From: Dolomedes plantarius
Taxonomy: Eukaryota; Arthropoda; Arachnida; Araneae; Dolomedidae
Assembly (NCBI GenBank): GCA_907164885.2
Contig: OU015490.1
Coordinates: 212,113,847-212,177,846, forward strand
Reading direction: 5' to 3'
DNA length: 64,000 nucleotides
Shown here: one piece after another, positions 13,124 to 56,388 of the stretch
Layout: every line of letters starts with the position of its first letter
Position numbering within the stretch: the first letter of the stretch is position 1
Translations under genes and position numbers: made by a program
Notes under the pieces: generated by a model
Told to the model about the DNA's origin: nothing
Databases searched by the model: none
What the model saw: the letters and a program-made list of their open reading frames with translations, nothing else

Positions 13124-14977
13124 TTAAGAAATTAATGAAATACTTTTCAGAGAGTAAATTAGTTTGTCTTCATTGACAGCTTTTGTCAGAAAATCCGCTG
13201 TAATATATTCAGTCTGTATATAACCCAGTTTAATAATATTGTCCATTAACAAATCTTTCACAAAATGAAAGCGTAAGTTCATGTGTCTTGATTTAGTCGA
13301 TGATCTGGTACATTTAATCCACTGGATTGCTGCTTGACTGTCTGAATTTAAGGTTACAACATCATTTATAAATTGTTTACATTTCAACTCAGATAATAAA
13401 TTTACAGTCCAAATAATATCTTTACAAATTTCAGAAATAGAAAATAACTCTGCTTCACATGTAGAAAGACTAACACTTTTTTGCTTATTGCATTTCCATG
13501 ACACAAGTGAATTACCTAATAAGATTACACCACCTGAAAATGACTTACCATTTTCAGCATTTCCCCAACTTGCATCTGAACTAGCATTCAAAAAACCAAA
13601 ATCGTTGCTATAAAACAATACTTTGTCTTTAGTACCTTTTAAATACCTTAATACTCTTTTTGCGATAAGATAATGTCTCTTTTCCGGTTTATGATTAAAC
13701 TGAGATAGATATGTTGTTACAAATGATATATCAGGACGCGTTCTATTAGCTAAATACAATAATTCACCAATTAATTCTTGATACATAGTTACATCAATTA
13801 AATCATTTGTAAGTGGAAAACTTTTATCTTCTCCTTTAACAATTGGAGATTTTACTGATTTACAATTTTCTAACTTATGTTTAAGCAAAAGTGACTGAAT
13901 ATATTCAATTTGTGATAAACTTACACCATTGTCATGTTTATTAATTTCCATACCTAAGAATTTAGAATTCTTATTCTCTTGAAATTCAAATACACTTTTA
14001 ATTTTAGAAACAATCTCGTGATACATTTCATTATTATTACAAAAAATAGCAATATCATCAACATACATACTTAATATAAAAAGATTTGTACCATCATGTT
14101 TAGTAAATACACAATTATCAGAAGCCAACTGTACCAAACCTATTTTTTCCAATTCAGATTTTATTTTCATGTACCAATTCCTGCCCGATTGTGGTAAACC
14201 GTAAATATTCTTTTATAATCTACAAACTTTTCCATCCCCAATTAATTTTTCAAAACCAGGTGGAGGTGACATGTATACTGTTTCCTCTAAGTCACTATAC
14301 AAATACGCAGTTTTTACGTCAAAAAATTTAACTATCAAATTTAATTTCGCTGAAAGCGCAAGTAATAATCGAAAAGATTCTATGTTTACAACAGGTGACT
14401 AAGACTCTAAATAATCCTTATTTTTTATTTGATTGCATCCAGCAGCTAGAAGTCGCGCTTTATATTTTATTTTATTGGAATCGCTCTCCTTCAAAGTGTA
14501 GACCCATTTACTTTTTATTATTTTTTCCTTTAGAGGTTTTTCTACTATTTCCCATACTTTATGCTGATTCAACGAATCTAGTTCATTTTTCATTGCTGAC
14601 TCCCAATCGCGCCAATTTACACTATTTTTTGCCTCCAAAAAAGTGTTTGGTATATCATCAGTTAGATTTGCTGACATTTGTTTATATTTTAGCCGTTCAG
14701 AGCGTCGGAGTTGCGGTTCGTGTTGACAGTTTTCACTGTTTATTTCCTCATCGGAGGGTTGCTTTACCTCCTGCATTGAGACTGGCTGTCTCTTATCTAG
14801 GTCGCTGCTATCAACAAAAATCTCAAACTCCGCCATTTTGTTTTTTGAACTAGTATACTCTAAATAAGTGCTACCTTTTAAATTTTCATTGAATCGAACT
14901 GATCGTTCTTCAATAATTTTATTACTTTTTAAGTCATAAATACGGTATCCTCGGCGTTCTATAGCATAACCTAACAT
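13124..14977 (-). pseudogene. Copia reverse transcriptase and RNase H
   Basis: The N-terminal part (14977 downward) contains DWESAMKNELDSL and KWVYTLKE, the entry of the copia RT (RVT_2). An in-frame TAG at 14399-14401 and a TAA at 14213-14215 interrupt it. Between them FDVKTAYLYSDLEE carries the first catalytic Asp and after them IYGLPQSGRNWY follows. The uninterrupted 348-residue end (14170-13124) has MYVDDIAIF with the two remaining catalytic Asp. It also has the RNase H landmarks DASWGN, SLSTCEAE, DSQAAIQW and KSRHMNLRFHF, with ADFLTKA near the end. Not functional because of the stops. Confidence 0.93.
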
Positions 14978-16200
14978 TATTCCCCGTTTTCCTGGAACAT
15001 CAAATTTATTATTATTATTTTCGGAATGTGAAAATAAGCCACACAGCCAAACTTTCTAAGATAATTTAGTTTGGGTTTTTTGCCTGTCCAGATTTCGAGA
15101 GGATTTTTTTCTTTTCCTTTACGTGGCGTCAAATTGGAAATTCTTGTACTACAATTAATAGCCTCAGCCCCGAATTTTAAAGGAAGTTGACTTTCATATA
15201 ATAAATCTCTAGCTCTATCTAATAAAACTCGATTAGCTCTCTCAGCTTTACCATTGCTTTCACTGTTGTATGGTACAGTTTTTTTCCCGAAATATGCCTG
15301 AATTAGCAAGAAAATTATCAAATTGCTCATTTACAAACTCTAGGCCATTATCGGTCCTTAACTTTTTAATTTTCTTACCCGTAAGATTTTCATATTTAGC
15401 TTTAAATTTCAAAAATACATTAAATACTTCACTTTTAGTTTTTAAGTAATATGTAAAATACATCCCAGAAAAATCGTCCACTAATATCATGAAATATTTC
15501 GAACCGCCAATTGATTCCGTTTGAACCGGACCGCAAATATCTGCATGAATTAATTCAAGAATTGCAGAACTTTGCTCGATATCAATATTTGGATGATTTT
15601 TCCGTGTAATTTTACTTATATCACAAGTTTCACAAACAAAATTCTTTACATCATTAATATCAATATATTCCTTCATTTTAATCATATATTTAGGATTTAA
15701 ATGACACAACCTATTATGCCAAAGCTCATAATTTTTAGTAGAATTGTCATTAACAATACATCATTCAGAATTATAAAAAGGTTCTAAATACACTTCAAGT
15801 CTGTTATCATTTTTAAACGCTTTGGTAAGTAACTTATTATGTTTATCAAAAATCAAAATACAATTATGATTTGAAACAATTTTACATCCCTTATTCATTA
15901 ACGAGGTTACTGATAACAGATTATATCTTAAATCAGGAACATAATTTACATTACTGATAGTTAAAGTTATAGGCTTAGAATTCTTATTTATAGTATTAGC
16001 TTTAACAGTACCTGTTCCTTGAGAATAAATCACTGAGTTTTTACCTGCTTGGTGGATGTCCTTAATTTCTGGTATTATTTCCTCAAACCAGAAAGAATTT
16101 TTGGCCATATGACAAGAAGCCCCACTATCTAGTAGCCAAACTTGATCATGCTCATCATCTTGAGCAGAAACCGTAAGCGCAGACCTGGGATGTTGATCAC
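14977..16200 (-). pseudogene. Copia protease and integrase
   Basis: Protease: VWLLDSGASCHM near 16135-16105 contains the DSGAS active-site motif. An in-frame TGA at about 15761 follows. The frame then resumes with ELWHNRLCHLNPKYM and the CETC pair of the GAG-pre-integrase zinc region. The integrase core follows with HADICGP (first Asp) and LRTDNGLEF (second Asp). A one-base slip in the T7 run at 15279-15285 shifts the frame, after which NSESNGKAERANR supplies the catalytic Glu. A second shift lies near 15000-15015 beside an AAT repeat, just before the RT frame. Confidence 0.9.
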
Positions 16201-16244
16201 CCGATGAATAATGCGCATTTGGTGAACTCCTCTTTTTTTCTTTA

Positions 16245-16934
16245 TTATTTCTTGTGTTGAAGTAACAATTTTTTAGCTAAGTGACCAGGGCGTCTGCATA
16301 TGTAGCAGTTTCTATTATTAAAATTATTATTCTTCTTCGAAATGAATGCCTCTGCGTTTCCTTCACTGCTTCTTCCGTTTTGGGAATTCGTCGCTTCTTC
16401 TTCACGTAGAATTTCTAATACTTCATCCATTGATTTGTCCCTTTGGGTCTTCAAAATGTCACGCACACGGATAAATTTGCCTTTCAGGCCTCGAACGGTG
16501 TAAAAAACTAATTCCCGTGGTGTAACTTCTAATCCGAGAGAAAGACACTTAGTCAATATCCCTCTTGCTCTGGCAATATAGTCGTTCGCAGATTCATTTG
16601 AAGTCATTTCCAGATTTTTTAATTCGTTTCCTGCATCTATTTTTCGATCTTCAGCTTGCCCCATGAATGTTGACTTTATTTTCTCCCACAGAGTTTTTGC
16701 ATTTACTTCCGTGGCGAACTGCAGCGCCTGCTCGTCTGACATAGCGAGCTACATGTAAGCTACTGCGTCAGCATTCTTTTGATCCCATTTTTCAGATTCC
16801 TTTTGATCCAAATTTTCTGGTTTCACACTGGAAATAACAGTATCTAGACGTTTTAATGACAGAGCTGGTTTCATTTTTAAACACCAGATGAAATAATTTT
16901 CTCCAGTCAGTTCTGGAACGTTAAGTTTCTCCAT
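16245..16934 (-). pseudogene. Copia gag
   Basis: It starts MEKLNVPELTGENYFIWC at 16934, the usual opening of copia gag. An in-frame TAG after 61 codons interrupts it and the frame reopens at 16742. The middle part contains KTLWEKIKSTF and LEMTSNESANDYI, typical of the UBN2-type gag core. The zinc knuckle starts CYICRRPGHLAKK, but a one-base insertion in an A run near 16255 removes the final Cys from the frame. Confidence 0.9.
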
Positions 16935-28353: not shown

Positions 28354-29947
28354 GGTGTCCCAAAACGACCGCATAAACTCTGCACAGCTAGATTCCTCGT
28401 TTGGAGTACATAAAAACTGCCCAAAGAAGCGTTCCTGTACGATCCATAGTTTACGAGAAAAATACGAAAAGCAAAGTAGGACGTTACTGCCAGTGCAATA
28501 AAAAACACATTATTGAACATATCAACAGCATGCACAATTTAAAGCAGATGTTCAAAGTGTCCGCCGTGCATGACTTGGCAGGATTGAGCACGCCGTGGAA
28601 TGGCTGTCATCACACGTTGCAGCATCGCGGGGTCCACCGAAGTACAAGCAGCATGCAGACGAGCAAGTCCATTTGTGTTGTCACTACGTCTCGATACACC
28701 AGTTCCTTGAGATGGCCCCATAGGAAAAAATCCAACGGTGTAAGATCTGGTGAACGTGGAGGCCATAGAACCGGACCCCCACGTCCGATCCAACGGCCGG
28801 GGTATTCCATATCCAGCCAACCACGTACAGGAGCACAGAAATGCGCCGGAGCCCCATCATGCTGGAACCAAAGTCCCTGTATTGCCGCTAATGGTATGTC
28901 ATCGAGGAACTCGGTTAAGACCTCATTGTGAAACAACAAGTACGACTGTCCCGAGAGCTGTTCAGGCAACAGATATGGTCCAAGCAGGCGATCCCCCAGT
29001 ATGCCGGCCCAAACGTTAAGAGACCAACGTTCCTGATATTTCTGCGGCCGGATTGCATGCGGATTGACCTGGGACCACATATGGCTATTGTGATGGTTGA
29101 ATACTCCATGACGAGTGAAACATGATTCATCAGTCCACAGGATATGTGCAATGAAACCATTATCTGTGTTCTGTTGCTGCAACAGCCATTCACAGAATGC
29201 CATGTGTTTCTGAAAGTCATCTGGTTTCAGACCTTGCACGGTTGTGTACAGAAATGGGTATAGCCTCTCAGACCGTAAAAGCCTGTGCACAGTACTTTTA
29301 CTCGAAGTCAAATCACGGGCTAATGCGCGTGTGCTTACCTCGGGCGTCTCTTCTACCCGCTGTAGTATTGCATCCGCCTGTGCTACTGTCAGGCCGCTCC
29401 GCGGTCTTCCAGTATCGTGAAGAATGGCTGTTGGCAAGACGCTTCTCGTATTTCGCAGTCTGTCGTCCAGCCTATGGATGACGTTGACATCGGGATGACG
29501 GTGGGACGGATACCGACGGACATACTCCCTAGCAGTTTGTAAAGCATTTCCATTACATCTGCCGGAGATCAAGTACATATCGCAGTAGTCACGAACGGAG
29601 TACATGACAACCATACGAAGACTACCGGTAGCTGCAAGATGCAGCTACAAGTTCGCCTTTAAAATACCATTTCAACGGCGGCTTAACGTCATTCCATGGC
29701 GACCGCGTATGCATGACGTGATATGCGGGGCGAACGTATTAATCATTCTCGTCTCGAAAGATATGCAAATATTGTTGTTGACATGTCCAATAAAGTGTTT
29801 TTTTCTTGCTTTGACAGTGACGTCATACTTTGTTTTTCGTATTTTTCTCGTAAACTATGGATCGTACAGGAACGCTTCTTTGGGCAGTTTTTATGTACTC
29901 TCAACGAGGAATCTAGCTGTGCAGAGTTTATGCGGTCGTTTTAGGAC

Positions 29948-43975: not shown

Positions 43976-44641
43976 ATGGCTGAACCAAGTGCTTTTTTGA
44001 CCCTTGAATTTAAGATATGTCAAAAAGTGGAGTTAATCGATTTGTGCAATGAACGGCTCAATTATGGGTCTAGCTATCACGTCATAGTAAATAAGAAAGT
44101 TGTAGTTGTTATTGTAACTCAAAGAGTATTTCACATAAATGGTATCGACGTGTTCTTTTCATTCTCCATTTTTTCGTTGGCATCATATTTAAAAAAAATA
44201 TTGTTTCTTTCTACACAATATAATTACAATATATTTAGGTATATAGATGATATAATAGTAATTAATAAAAGTAATAATCCTATAGACTTAAATTTTTACC
44301 CTCCTAATCTGGAACTAATTAAAAGTAGCCAAGATGATATTAATGTAAACTTTTTAGATATTAACATTAAATTAAATTCTCAAAGCAAATTTACTTTTGA
44401 CTTATACGACAAAAGATCTGATTATGGTTTTAATATTGTTAAATTTCAAAATTACCTAACCTGTTTACATAAATCTGTTTTTAATAACATTATTGTAAAT
44501 CAGTTAGTTCGTATAAATAGGCTATGTTCTAAAGACAATAGGAATAACCATATTTTAGACTTGATAGCTGTGCTAACAAGTAATTATTACCCCGAAAGTC
44601 TATCCAAACACATAATTGGTTGTTTTAGTTTTAATGAATAG
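43976..44641 (+). CDS. Reverse-transcriptase-like fragment of unresolved lineage
   Basis: A 221-codon frame. The first ~75 residues show no RT similarity and may be an unrelated frame entry. From about residue 85 it reads FRYIDDIIVINKSNN, with a YxDD box as in RT catalytic motif C. DDINVNFLDINIKLN and FTFDLYDKRSDYGFN follow, fitting the region after the catalytic box. The upstream fingers and palm motifs are missing, so it is partial. I cannot place it confidently among non-LTR, Penelope-like or virus-associated RTs. No LTR is visible, and an A-rich tail region follows at 44650-44810. Confidence 0.55.
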   Translation: MAEPSAFLTLEFKICQKVELIDLCNERLNYGSSYHVIVNKKVVVVIVTQRVFHINGIDVFFSFSIFSLASYLKKILFLSTQYNYNIFRYIDDIIVINKSNNPIDLNFYPPNLELIKSSQDDINVNFLDINIKLNSQSKFTFDLYDKRSDYGFNIVKFQNYLTCLHKSVFNNIIVNQLVRINRLCSKDNRNNHILDLIAVLTSNYYPESLSKHIIGCFSFNE

Positions 44642-48528: not shown

Positions 48529-49599
48529 TGACGCCTCTCCGTTAACAAAATAAATTCTTCTATCTCGGCCTGAGACACTTCAAAGGATTTCCGACGGCTT
48601 GGGTGGCAATATGCTGACAGCAATTTTCCTTTTGTTCATCCGATAGACTTGTTCCACAGGACCTTAGGGGACGTGGTCATTTTTCTTGATTTAGTCATCG
48701 CCACCGGGTGACGCCGCTGGTATTTATTATAAATGACAGGAGACCCCCCAGGTGCTTTCATTCATGAACTATCAATTGTTAAGCAGCATCCTGGAGGCGT
48801 CGCGTGCCTAAACAAAAGGACTCGTGCCTTTCGCATTTTACCGAAGCGGCCCTTTTGAGACTCTTTGAAGTGGCTTGGAGGACAAACTAAAAAGGCGGCC
48901 GCTTTAGACCCGGGGAAAATATTTCATTATCGCCCCAGGAAACCCATTTCCGTTGCTCACTTGTTCTAGATCGTTCGACTTTCTGGAGAGTGATGCAATA
49001 TCCGGTGGAGGTCTTCTATAAAAAGAGAATGGACCCCTCAGTCGAGGCTTGCGTCTTTTTAGTTCCTGACACGTAGCGGATCCAGTTCTAAGAGCAGCCG
49101 GGTTTGCCGCCCTTATCGGTTCAGAGTCCCTTGTGACTGTTTTGCAGCGACGATCTAGTTCCTGCAGGAGTAAACATACTCCACTAATTTGTCGGAGACC
49201 AGTCTTCGTGGAAGGAGCCTTTGCTACCTTATTTTCCAGTGAGGAGTCCTTTCTCCTTAATTTAATAATTTCATCGCTACCGGGTGCGTGCAGTGATCAC
49301 CGCCGTTGATATTATGGGGGAGCCCTTTCCCGTCAGGAGAAGTGCCGTTTCTTCATCATTGAAGCAGAGCCAGTTCTGCTAGCCTAGCGGACTTCTGTGT
49401 TCTTACTCCGCCCCACGCCGATAAAATCGAGTGTGATTACCTACGTTACGAAGTTCATCTTACATCTGTGCAGTGTACATATCTCATCATCATCAATTTG
49501 ATTAATAAATTACATTTGTTTTGTTTATGTAATGAGTGATGTATACCTGGTGTGTTTAAATCATCTTCTGGTTGACACTACGAACCTCAGTTCGCTACA
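48529..49599 (+). repeat. Gypsy 5' LTR
   Basis: From CCTCTCCGTTAAC (48534) to TTCGCTACA (49599) it aligns without gaps to 55257-56322 (1066 bp). I noticed four mismatches. Left of 48534 the two LTRs differ: the 3' LTR has about 20 more bases starting TGTAG, whereas here TGACG precedes. The true left border is therefore uncertain and may be truncated. Confidence 0.9.
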
Positions 49600-49624: not shown

Positions 49625-49635
49625 TGGTGGCAGCG
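49625..49635 (+). other. Candidate primer-binding site
   Basis: TGGTGGCAGCG could pair with a tRNA 3' end (..CGCTGCCACCA). It starts 25 bases after the LTR end, further than usual, so the assignment is tentative. Confidence 0.4.
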
Positions 49636-49673: not shown

Positions 49674-49934
49674 TTTCCTTAGTGATAGTCGCGTGTGTTC
49701 AGAACTGTGACTGTGCGGATGTGCTATTGCTGGTGTGTATCCTGTGAAGTAGTGTAGAGCGGCTGACGTTCTTGTGAAATCTGCTAAACTGCTGCAGTGT
49801 TAATTTCCTTAGTGACATTCGCGCGTGTTTCAGAACTGAGACTGTGTGAAAGTGCTATTGCGGGTGTGTGTATCCTGTGAATTAGAGTAGAACGTTTGAC
49901 GTTCTTGTGCCATCTGATAAACTTGCTGCAGTGC
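49674..49934 (+). repeat. 130-bp tandem duplication in the retrotransposon leader
   Basis: TTTCCTTAGTGAYA starts both copies (49674 and 49804). Each continues with CAGAACTG-GACTGTG, GTGCTATTGC, TGTATCCTGTGAA and GACGTTCTTGTG, and ends near CTGCTGCAGTG. Many substitutions separate them, so the duplication predates this insertion. Confidence 0.85.
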
Positions 49935-50517: not shown

Positions 50518-53500
50518 ATGGGTTCTCTTGTTCGTGCAAAGAAAGAGGACTTAGTTAACCTCGCTATAGAAATGAGTTGTGAGGTAGATTTGGGAATGCT
50601 GAAGCTTGAGATAATCAAAAAAATTGAAAGTTCAGCAGATTACAATGTAAAATTGGCTGAAGGGTTGTTAGCTGAAATTATGGAGACCCGTATAGAAAAC
50701 GAGCAACGAGCCCGGAAAAAACGGGAAGATGAATTAGCTCAACAAGAACGGGAGGATAGGTTAGCTCAACAAGAGCGAGAGTTTGAGCTAGCCAAATTAA
50801 GACTGAGTAGGGAAGCCCCCCAAGAAAGCCCGTCTGTTAGTCCTCCGAGACCTGCGGGACACTCATTAAGACACATAATGCAAAAATTCGACCCTGAAGA
50901 AACTGATATAAGTCTATACCTTTGCCTTTTTGAACGGCAGGCACAGCATTTAAAAATACCGGAAGCTGAATGGTCAGGCAGTTTAATTAGCCTGTTACCA
51001 TTATCAGTAGCGGCCATTGTGTTACGGGAAAAAGTCGAGGACACACAAAAATATTCCCATGTTAAGAGCGTGCTTCTCGAGCGATTCAGGCTCAGTCCTG
51101 AAGCTTTTCGTCAGAAGTTTGTTAGACACCAGCGTAAGCCAGGAACCCTATGGAAAGATTATCTTTTCGAAATAAAGACGTATTTCGAAGGTTGGATAGA
51201 GGGTCTCGGTGTTACAACTTTTGAGTCGTTAAAAGATCTCTTTCTGGTCGACCAATTAAAACGGAAAATGGGAAGTGAAATCCGGGAGCAAAATATAAGG
51301 GATTGGGAGAATTACACGTCCCCTGAAACCTTGGTCAAAGACGCGGATCAGTTTGAGCTTATCAGAAAAACAGGTAAGCCCCCCAACCAACCGAAGAAAT
51401 TCGAGGGACGCGCGCCCGACCAACGGAAAATGTTTGGGGCTGTAAAAACGGGAGAGAAAGTTGAAAAACCCCCCGAACAACACGAACCCGAACGAAATTT
51501 AGATAAGGTGAGCTCCCCTCGCCCAAAAGAAAACCGCCGTAAAGAATGGAACCATAAAGAGTTCGACAAAAGGCGTGTGACAGACATTAAGTGCTATTTT
51601 TGCCACGGGGTCGGGCATATTAGGCCCCAGTGTCCGTTATTAACAAAAAAAGAAGAGGTTAACTCCATAGGTGCCGATTTGGAAATCACAGATCCCTTAA
51701 AACCATATGTGAGTATAGGGACTGTGAACGGCCAGGTATGTGAGATACTTAGAGATACGGGTAGTACGATTGATCTGGTTTGTAAAAGATTTATTTCGCC
51801 CGACGACTACCTCGGCGAAACAGTCTGGCTCACTCAGCCGTTAGACACTCGTGCCATTAACGTGCCCCTAGCGCGCGTAATTCTGAACTCCCAGTATGGA
51901 AATATAACAACAAAGGCCTGTGTCATTAGCGACAGGTCAAATCAACAAAGATACATACTGGGAAATCAAACGGCAGCTCTTCTAAGACAGGGTCAACAAA
52001 ACTCTAAGAGCATGCAAATCAATGCAATAACGCGCTCGCGTTCCAAATGTCAAGAGAGCTGTACACAGACACTTCAGTCAAACGATTCTCTTCGAGAGCG
52101 TTCGGACAATAGTCCCTCAGATGGGGAGTCAATCGTTTTGATACAACTGGAAAGGGAGGAACAGGCGAAATTGTTAGTTTTACCCCCCCTCGACCGCGAA
52201 GACCCAGCGTTGAGTCTATTAAATGTTTCCCCAGAGAAATTCGCAGACGCACAGCGGGAATGTGTAGAATTGGCCGCATTGTTAAAAAAAGTCGAAAGTC
52301 CAAGTCAAACCGGCGAGAAGGGTTATGTAGTGATAAACGGGTTATTGTGTAAACAACAGAGGGACCACTTTGGGGATACACGAAGTCTTTTAGTTGTCCC
52401 ACAGGTATTCAGGGAAAAACTGTTGGCAGTATGCCATGAGTCAACAAACGCTCATTTAGGTGCGACGAAATCGAAACAGAGGCTAGCCAAATCGTTTTTT
52501 TGGCCCCGATGTTACCAAGAAATGGAGGAATACGTGAGGTCGTGCGACGCATGTCAGCGCATAGGAAATGCTCAAGATACTAAGAGATTCCCCATGCGAT
52601 TAACGCCTATAATTAGCGAGCCATTTGTCAAAATAAACATCGACGCTTGCGGACCTCTGCCCGAATCTGAGAATGGAAATAAGTACCTAATCACCGCTAT
52701 ATGTTTAGCTTCAAAGTTCCCGGAAGCAATTCCCGTGAAAAACCTAAGGTCATTATCTGTCACGGATGCTTTGTTGCAGGTATTCAGTAGAACCGGGTTC
52801 CCGAAAGAGGTGCAATGCGGCAATGGCACGTCGTTTACGAGCGAGTTAACGTGCGAATTTTTTGAGAAATTCGGCATCAAAGTGACGCATAGTTCAGTGG
52901 GGCATCCACAAAGCAACCCTGTAGAGAGATTCCACCGAACACTTAAGAGACTGTTAAAGGTCCTGTGTTTGGAAAACGGGGAGAGTTGGGAACGTCATTT
53001 ACCAGCCTCGCTCCTCGCGATTCGGACTATAACGCATAATAGTACGGGATTCTCACCGGCCGAACTGTTGTATGGAAAAAACCTACGAACACCCGAAGTT
53101 TTATTGTACGAAGGTTGGATGGGAGGTTGTGAGGAAGAGAGACCCGTGACAGAGCACGTCCTTACCCTAGTGAATAGATTAAAAAGAGCGCGAGAATTAG
53201 CTGCTCAGAAAATGGGTGAAGAACAATCTAAGCGTAAGGAAGCGTATGATAAGAGCGCAGTTAAAAGGCATTTCGAGGTTGGAGATTTAGTTCTGATTTT
53301 CTCTTTATCTCGACCTAGCAAAATGGCGCCGAAGTGGATAGGCCCAGCGAAAATTGAAGCTCGCGTATCCGAGACGAATTATCGAGTGCAAACTCCCGGA
53401 CCTAGACAGAAATCCAGCATTTACCATATTAATATGCTGAAGCCCTATATCAGGCGTCCCGAAACTATAAATTGGGTTTATGAAGGTAAAGTCGAAATTG

Positions 53501-54978
53501 GTACTGAGGATGATTTCGCAATCCACGTTTTTGAAACCGGTGCTACCGATTTCGATTACGAGGAGATTGTGCGCGAGAGCGAACTTGACGCTCGTCTAAA
53601 TCTCACTCAAAAAAGGGAATTAAAGAAATTATTGTGTAGCCATGCAAATATTTTTTCTAATAACCCAGGAAAAACCGAGAAAGTTACGCATGACATAGAG
53701 CTGATCTCGGATAAGGTCGTTAGGTCTAGACCATACAAAACGTCACACCGACAGAACGAAATCTTGAAGTTGGAGATTGACAAAATGTTAAAATTAGGAG
53801 TGATACAAGTAGGTGAGTCTGATTATACCTCGCCTATCATTTTGGTAGAAACCGATGGTCGTGAACCGAGACCCTGTATTGATTATCGTAGGTTGAACGA
53901 AATAATTCGCACCGAATATTACCCCCTCCCCAACATAGAGGAAAGGGTTGAACAAGTTGCAGGATCTGATTTCATAACAATACTCGATCTTGCAAAGGGG
54001 TATTGGCAAATCCCCTTGACAGAAAGGGCCCAACGCATTGCGGCTTTTGTCACCTCATTCGGGACATTCAGGCCTTTGCGGATGCCTTTCGGGCTTAAAA
54101 ACGCACCTTTCTTTTTCAGTAAGCTCATGGCTGACGTCCTAAATGGGTGTGAGGAGTATGCCGTTCCATATATCGACGACATCGCGATATTTTCTAAGAC
54201 CAGGGACGAGCATCTGAAGCATTTAGATATCGTGTTAAGTCGTGTAGCGCAAGCGCAGCTCACAATCAAATCATCGAAATGTCGGTTCGCCCAAAACCAT
54301 GTAAAATACTTGGGGTACATGGTCGGCGGAGGTTATCGAAATCCCGCCGAATTAAAGGTAAAATGCATTAGGGAATTTCCCCGGCCAGAGACAAAGACGA
54401 GTATTCGGGCATTTCTGGGTCTCACTGGGTATTACGCGCACTATATTCCAAATTATTCTATGATAGCGGCCCCCTTAACCGATGCGTTAAAGGGACGGGA
54501 GAAACGCGCGGAGGTTGTGTGGGACGAAGCTTGAGAGGCAGCGTTCACCACTTTGAAAGACGCTCTTATAAAAACACCTGTGCTACGAGCTCCTGATTTT
54601 ACTGTTCCATTTATTGTCCAAACGGACGCATCCGATCTGGGAGCCGGGGTAGTGTTGGCCCAACAAATAGGTGATAAGGAACGTCCTATCCTGTACCTGA
54701 GTAGGAAGTTCTCTGAGCCCGAAAGGAAATACAGCACCACAGAGAAAGAGTGCTTGGCGATCATATTCGCGTTAAAAAAACTTCACTACTATCTGGACGG
54801 AAGCGAATTCAAAATCGTGACCGACCATAACCCATTGGTATGGCTCAAGAAGAATGCCAGTTCAAATGGCCGTCTTTTTCGGTGGCAACTTATGTTGCAG
54901 CAATTTTGTTTTCGGGTAGAACACAAGCCGGGAAGACAGAATACAAACGCTGACGCTTTAAGCAGATACATTCCTTAA
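50518..54978 (+). pseudogene. Gypsy (Gmr1-like) gag-pol polyprotein with one TGA
   Basis: A single frame of 1486 positions plus stop. Gag has a charged helical stretch (about residues 58-105, with repeated LAQQERE), the capsid-type region, and a zinc knuckle CYFCHGVGHIRPQC at 359-372. Protease: RDTGSTIDLV, Asp at 413. Integrase: H640, H646, C676, C679 zinc region; D709 in NIDACGPLP; Gly768 in QCGNGTSF where the family has Asp; E803 in NPVERFHR. A GPY/F-like module follows (KWIGPAKIEARV, YHINMLKPY). Reverse transcriptase: ILDLAKGYWQIP and VPYIDDIAIFS (Y1218, D1220, D1221). A TGA at codon 1339 (54532-54534) separates RNase H, which retains QTDASDLGAG, STTEKECLA, VTDHNPLVWL and NADALSR. Integrase before RT is the hallmark. 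Start chosen as the first ATG of the frame. Confidence 0.93.
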
Positions 54979-55223: not shown

Positions 55224-55233
55224 GGCAGGGGGG
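55224..55233 (+). other. Polypurine tract of the gypsy element
   Basis: GGCAGGGGGG lies three bases before TGTAG, the start of the 3' LTR. Confidence 0.75.
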
Positions 55234-55236
55234 TTA

Positions 55237-56319
55237 TGTAGAGTATTGCATTTCAACCTCTCCGTTAACAAAAGAAATTCTTCTATCTCGGTCTGAGACA
55301 CTTCAAAGGATTTCCGACGGCTTGGGTGGCAATATGCTGACAGCAATTTTCCTTTTGTTCATCCGATAGACTTGTTCCACAGGACCTTAGGGGACGTGGT
55401 CATTTTTCTTGATTTAGTCATCGCCACCGGGTGACGCCGCTGGTATTTATTATAAATGACAGGAGACCCCCCAGGTGCTTTCATTCATGAACTATCAATT
55501 GTTAAGCAGCATCCTGGAGGCGTCGCGTGCCTAAACAAAAGGACTCGTGCCTTTCGCATTTTACCGAAGCGGCCCTTTTGAGACTCTTTGAAGTGGCTTG
55601 GAGGACAAACTAAAAAGGCGGCCGCTTTAGACCCGGGGAAAATATTTCATTATCGCCCCAGGAAACCCATTTCCGTTGCTCACTTGTTCTAGATCGTTCG
55701 ACTTTCTGGAGAGTGATGCAATATCCGGTGGAGGTCTTCTATAAAAAGAGAATGGACCCCTCAGTCGAGGCTTGCGTCTTTTTAGTTCCTGACACGTAGC
55801 GGATCCAGTTCTAAGAGCAGCCGGGTTTGCCGCCCTTATCGGTTCAGAGTCCCTTGTGACTGTTTTGCAGCGACGATCTAGTTCCTGCAGGAGTAAACAT
55901 ACTCCACTAATTTGTCGGAGACCAGTCTTCGTGGAAGGAGCCTTTGCTACCTTATTTTCCAGTGAGGAGTCCTTTCTCCTTAATTTAATAATTTCATCGC
56001 TACCGGGTGCGTGCAGTGATCACCGCCGTTGATATTATTGGGGAGCCCTTTCCCGTCAGGAGAAGTGCCGTTTCTTCATCATTGAAGCAGAGCCAGTTCT
56101 GCTAGCCTAGCGGACTTCTGTGTTCTTACTCCGCCCCACGCCGATAAAATCGAGTGTGATTACCTACGTTACGAAGTTCATCTTACATCTGTGCAGTGTA
56201 CATATCTCATCATCATCAATTTGATTAATAAATTGCATTTGTTTTGTTTATGTAATGAGTGATGTATACCTGGTGTGTTTAAATCATCTTCTGGTTGACA
56301 CTACGAACCTCAGTTCGCT

Positions 56320-56322
<3 letters not shown>
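55237..56322 (+). repeat. Gypsy 3' LTR, 1086 bp
   Basis: It begins TGTAG and ends CTACA, a 5-bp terminal inverted repeat. Its last 1066 bp match the 5' LTR nearly perfectly. The last base is followed at once by (TA)n. Confidence 0.92.

Positions 56323-56388
<66 letters not shown>

Follow-up and report, generated by a model that had tools for sequence, protein, structure and literature searches.

An LTR retrotransposon in the spider Dolomedes plantarius carries its integrase (IN) ahead of its reverse transcriptase (RT), and the locus raises the question of whether this arrangement is an accident of one copy, the product of recombination between unlike elements, or the property of a lineage. 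We examined it in a 64-kb window, by which we mean the whole stretch of DNA analysed. An earlier note on this DNA had described gag, a DTGS protease, an HHCC integrase with a GPY/F module, an RT with YIDD and RNase H, in that order and flanked by LTRs. Pfam matches and the translation recovered the same domains in the same order, with a stop between RT and RNase H, between two LTRs of about 1.09 kb (Table 1). The Pfam E-values of the RT, H2C2, rve and RNase H matches exclude chance, and protease residue D413 is invariant across 26 sequences.

Table 1. Features of the element and its immediate flank, in window coordinates.
Feature	Position	Strand	Basis or remark
5′ LTR, extent of match to 3′ LTR	48534..49599	+	1,066 bp; 4 substitutions relative to 55257-56322
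Candidate primer binding site TGGTGGCAGCG	49625..49635	+	read directly; 25 nt past LTR end
Untranslated leader, tandem duplication of about 130 bp	49674..49933	+	copies 49674-49803 and 49804-49933
Single ORF with H2C2, rve, GPY/F-type C-terminal domain (p58_C), then RVT_1	50518-54534	+	
Capsid part of gag (residues 194-284), homologue of the SCAN domain in related elements	51097..51369	+	hhalign
Gag CCHC zinc knuckle	51586..51636	+	zf-CCHC, weak (E 0.073 and 0.026); also visible in translation
Protease active-site motif DTGS	51754..51765	+	visible in translation
Integrase N-terminal HHCC (H2C2) domain	52396..52563	+	PF17921, 3.6e-16
Integrase catalytic core (rve match)	52621..52908	+	2.1e-11
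Integrase triad codons	52642 (D), 52819 (G, not D), 52924 (E)	+	E lies just past rve match
Integrase C-terminal GPY/F-type SH3 module	53341..53445	+	PF22938, 1.1e-6
Reverse transcriptase with YIDD	53866..54321	+	PF00078, 3.7e-30
In-frame TGA cutting polyprotein ahead of RNase H	54532..54534	+	
RNase H, in RT frame, beyond the stop	54553..54978	+	PF17917, 2e-40
Candidate polypurine tract GGCAGGGGGG	55224..55233	+	read directly; putative function
3′ LTR, TGTAG...CTACA	55237..56322	+	1,086 bp
(AT)n microsatellite adjoining 3′ LTR end	56323-56384		

The 5′ LTR matches its partner over all but its initial 20 bp, which are missing or replaced, and no shared sequence was seen to the left of position 48534. 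The LTRs end in TG..CA. No target-site duplication is visible, the 5′ end of the element being altered and its 3′ flank consisting of an (AT)n run. The candidate primer site, which we take to resemble the 3′ end of tRNA-Leu, stands apart from the LTR end rather than adjoining it, an unusual distance for such a site. The two leader repeats are about 85% alike over 130 bp (110 of 134 columns in a second alignment). Only 258 bp separate the end of RNase H from the 3′ LTR, too few for an envelope gene. The G+C content of the coding part and LTR is 45-46%, against 33% in the window, and no second copy of the element was found within the 64 kb. Elsewhere in the window are a decayed copia-type element in pieces on the minus strand (13124-16742; RVT_2 fragments, retroviral SH3 and copia gag), a 334-aa transposase-like ORF with DUF4817 and Tc3-type helix-turn-helix domains (28610-29614, minus strand), and a 221-aa ORF with YIDD (43976-44641, plus strand), which has no Pfam match at E 0.01 and is perhaps a Penelope-like fragment.

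The LTRs are identical at 1062 of 1066 positions (99.6%, K about 0.004). Despite this, the copy should not be able to mobilise itself, since a TGA precedes RNase H and the second catalytic aspartate of IN is replaced by glycine; the intact polyprotein and catalytic residues that an autonomous element needs are both lacking. The earlier description was therefore right in part: order, motifs and LTRs stand as given, whereas the "DDE integrase" reads D-G-E, with 34 residues separating the second and third positions, and the "single gag-pol frame" is parted by the stop at 54532. Near-identical LTRs together with this damage fit a recent insertion that either has since decayed or was made in trans. 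The apparent damage may also stem from sequencing error. Taken as it reads, this copy would move only if served by others.

Three protein searches were run with queries extending from IN to RT, the third with P0156, an unnamed row that belongs to the IN-first group described below. The best 120 of 1503, 1395 and 5769 matches, respectively, gave 277 distinct relatives, the closest among the matches listed being P0001 (79%) and the closest with a named source coming from spiders. IN precedes RT in all 277 of these listed relatives, which include sequences named for sponge, tick and spider, and the order is thus a property of the lineage and not of this copy. As queries of this kind, with the best 120 matches kept for each, favour IN-first sequences, gypsy elements found by RT alone were added for comparison. 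A scan of prokaryotic genome contigs with an RT alignment found 35 gypsy-like loci (L001-L035) under archaeal or bacterial names, mostly in MAGs and apparently eukaryotic contamination; the same scan of viral contigs found nothing, and a scan with a polyprotein alignment found nothing in either viral or prokaryotic genome contigs. Thirteen of the 35 loci were present in just one domain set and were dropped, and L014, L032 and L034 lacked any domain of full length. In the 19 loci in which both domains were long enough, and in Ty3, IN follows RT; these 20 rows served as standard-order outgroups. None of the 35 loci has both domains with IN upstream only. On four short contigs (L015, L019, L022 and L025) pieces of IN also lie upstream of RT near the contig end, and in L013 a piece of RT lies downstream of IN. 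We read these extra pieces as neighbouring elements; the IN pieces flanking one RT in the first four may be tandem or circular copies.

RT (282 columns) and IN (364 columns) trees were then built separately for 46 rows with IQ-TREE under a mixture model. The 26 IN-first rows formed one group apart from the 20 standard-order rows, with support of 100/99 in the RT tree and in the IN tree, and the grouping was recovered in 100% of 200 bootstrap trees for each domain. Inside it lie the window element, named spiders and ticks, the sea urchin Diadema, frogs, turtles and a number of unnamed rows. Two sponge rows, P0246 (Halichondria) and P0259 (labelled Em0001g1970a, presumably Ephydatia), were found by the search with P0156 and are additional to the 46 rows of the trees. 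The attachment of the urchin differs between domains, with the arachnids in the RT tree (80/65) and with P0156 and P0157 in the IN tree (99/93). For the rows sampled, the trees point to one origin of the IN-first order, at the root of a clade that spans several animal phyla. The Gmr1-type placement and the order, which the earlier note had made its main point, are supported by these trees and by the 277 listed relatives. The separation of RT and IN into unrelated clades, named there as evidence to the contrary, was not seen, both falling in the same IN-first group; nor was IN found after RNase H in any of the 277, which are protein-search matches rather than copies from the same genome.

Two other accounts of the order bear weighing against these results. 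A rearrangement or assembly fault confined to this copy, in a family that normally has IN last, would agree with the lack of another copy within the window, but every listed relative shares the order, in BLASTP matches that cover 46-100% of the query and mostly more than 80%, and we consider this account extremely improbable. Alternatively, the element might be a recombinant, with an IN captured from a different, copia-like superfamily or an unrelated clade of gypsy and an RT from a second source, a suggestion that draws on the order being that of Ty1/copia. The IN itself is of gypsy type, however, with a GPY/F module and Ty3 as its best solved match. In the IN tree, which was built without copia integrase, the IN-first group joins the standard-order gypsy rows L031, L012, L016, L023 and L027 (99/100), and its nearest standard-order rows in the RT tree are L031, L012, L016 and L024, although weakly (84/60). 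Several standard-order rows are long-branched and of unsure placement. That both trees share L031, L012 and L016 as nearest neighbours speaks for a rearrangement inside a single gypsy lineage rather than the acquisition of an integrase from elsewhere, and we regard a recombinant origin as very unlikely.

Residues 194-284 of gag aligned with the SCAN region of the relatives in hhalign (97.6%, E 3.9e-12), which identifies a SCAN-related capsid domain; Pfam SCAN itself was not reported for the window gag. Among the 26 IN-first rows, 15 reach Pfam SCAN at E 0.01, the window element not being among these. In the tick, sponge and frog elements looked at (P0066 and others) Pfam SCAN stood above the cut-off in gag, and in the urchin row P0129 just below it. 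An N-terminal SAP domain, suggested by P0129 and seen in 2 of the 26 rows, is unsupported for the window. The SCAN domain of vertebrate zinc-finger proteins has been noted to resemble Gmr1-like capsids (PMC4592553).

The integrase of the window element departs from the D,D35E pattern in a way that many of its relatives share. Of the 277 relatives 239 could be scored for spacing, the other 38 having too little of IN to be counted. The second Asp and the Glu are separated by 34 residues in the window element and in 105 of these relatives, and by 35 in the other 134 and in all 20 standard-order rows, Ty3 included. The catalytic triad is complete in 236 of 239, the exceptions being P0257, with Asn in place of the second Asp, P0271, in which Lys replaces Glu, and P0037, where the first Asp falls in an alignment gap; P0037 is the one relative among the 105 with a spacing of 34 that does not show the full triad. 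One row, P0256, also counts 34, but its gap lies elsewhere (a His) and its glycine is kept, and it is set apart from what we call the DD34E branch. The active-site-loop glycine three residues before the Glu is absent from the window element and its 104 DD34E relatives (0 of these 105 rows), as compared to its presence in 154 of 154 rows with a spacing of 35, which include sponge, urchin and vertebrate IN-first elements as well as Ty3. In HIV-1 integrase two glycines bound the active-site loop, which comprises residues 140-149 (PMC2920056).

The distribution of this trait follows taxonomy where species are named. All 36 scored arachnid-named rows, out of 38 looked up, show the spacing of 34; they come from six spider and five tick species. 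All 13 rows looked up that are named for sponge, urchin, frog or turtle (nine species) have 35; no arachnid occurs among the species-named DD35E rows, most DD35E rows being unnamed. P0014 and P0057, with 34, bear archaeal MAG labels and look like contamination. In the 46-row trees 16 DD34E rows form one group (100/99 for RT, 100/100 for IN); 14 of them, the window element included, came from the search with that element, P0130 and P0150 are unnamed, and every one has a spacing of 34. A larger RT tree of 251 rows was built with FastTree, independently of IN and with nine more DD34E rows left out. On it the spacing trait needs two changes, which fits one for the DD34E branch and one for P0256. 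Because standard-order and other IN-first rows alike have 35, the deletion is most simply the derived state. We take the altered integrase geometry to be old and probably functional.

It might be argued that DD34E is instead the mark of dead integrases, whose elements spread with help in trans from DD35E relatives. The copy in the window also lacks its second Asp, and the loop glycine is otherwise kept in every one of the 154 rows with 35; both points speak for this account. Against this, 103 of the 105 DD34E rows have the complete triad (the window element and P0037 are the exceptions, P0256 being set aside), even though DD34E rows are down to 43% identical over IN-RT, and the scored arachnid-named rows are uniform for the short spacing while the DD35E rows that carry a species name are non-arachnid. 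We therefore judge the dead-integrase account unlikely, and consider it somewhat more probable than otherwise that the arachnid Gmr1-like branch runs on a working D,D34E retroviral-type integrase that lacks the loop glycine and became fixed before the split between spiders and ticks.

Among solved structures, the best match of RT is the Ty3 RT (4ol8, 3.8e-54) and that of IN is Ty3 (intasome 7q5b), and the IN core fold agrees with those of the prototype foamy virus and Ty3 integrases. Yeast Ty3 differs from the window element in having IN after RT and a D,D35E integrase with the loop glycine; in Ty3-G, RT was matched at 584-849 and IN at 1088-1450, the opposite order. The retroviral integrase of prototype foamy virus is 24% identical to the IN described here, and retroviruses, prototype foamy virus included, carry integrase last. 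Ty1/copia elements are ordered PR-IN-RT-RH (PMC6238403), as here, but the RT and IN of the window element match gypsy-type families instead.

The Gmr1 clade was reportedly first described in 2002 by Goodwin and Poulter, from deuterostomes. It is characterised in the literature as gypsy with IN upstream of RT (PMC6238403, PMC2774666). The earlier note had treated the order as one described from deuterostomes, which no longer holds. A 2013 paper presented four Gmr1-like elements of crustaceans as the first from protostomes (PMC3587641), an annelid Gmr1-like family followed in 2021 (PMC8220671), and another survey of annelids lists Gmr1 as one of five gypsy clades present in several phyla (PMC8556966). 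Among the papers listed in searches of the open-licence literature, we found no report of an arachnid Gmr1-like element; the "spider" of PMC3587641 is a spider crab. On sequence comparison the window element is a Gmr1-like Ty3/gypsy retrotransposon, as judged from its order, from the frog, turtle and urchin elements it groups with, which stand in for the type element Gmr1 of cod, and from published Gmr1-like copies of the frog Silurana (Xenopus tropicalis), which number about 200 (PMC4131045). Set beside the known clade (Gadus, Xenopus, Tetraodontiformes, crustacean GyRex4/5 and annelid LGF3), it shares IN upstream of RT, a SCAN-related capsid (PMC4592553) and a grouping with vertebrate and urchin IN-first elements, and it can be likened to the Gmr1-like elements of pufferfish and kin, which have a single gag-pol frame of 1,506-1,634 aa (PMC11117352). 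It differs in its LTR of 1,086 bp, compared to 337-518 bp in fish Gmr1-like elements (PMC11117352), and the arachnid-type branch differs in being DD34E without the loop glycine, whereas the integrase of crustacean GyRex5 is described as DD35E (PMC3587641).

Taken together, we are largely confident in reading this locus as a young, damaged, non-autonomous Gmr1-like LTR retrotransposon of an arachnid, in a lineage whose domain order arose once among the rows sampled and whose arachnid-type branch derived D,D34E. The order would most likely have come about by rearrangement inside a gypsy element. In intact relatives, one Gag-PR-IN-RT-RH polyprotein would be cut by the protease, freeing IN from its middle and not from its end; to judge by the domains, the RNA would be packaged and copied by RT and RNase H, and the DNA inserted by the retroviral-type integrase. 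In the ancestor of the arachnid-type branch, IN would have lost one residue and the conserved loop glycine to give the D,D34E pattern seen in its rows, and conservation suggests that these enzymes work.

The rows sampled indicate that the IN-first order goes back to one event in a clade extending from sponges to vertebrates and arachnids and is not a deuterostome oddity. For the active-site loop of retroviral-type integrases, the DD34E branch offers a natural experiment. If these integrases do function, nature can rebuild a spacing and a glycine hinge that 154 of the remaining 155 sampled rows retain (P0256, with a different gap but with the glycine, being the exception).
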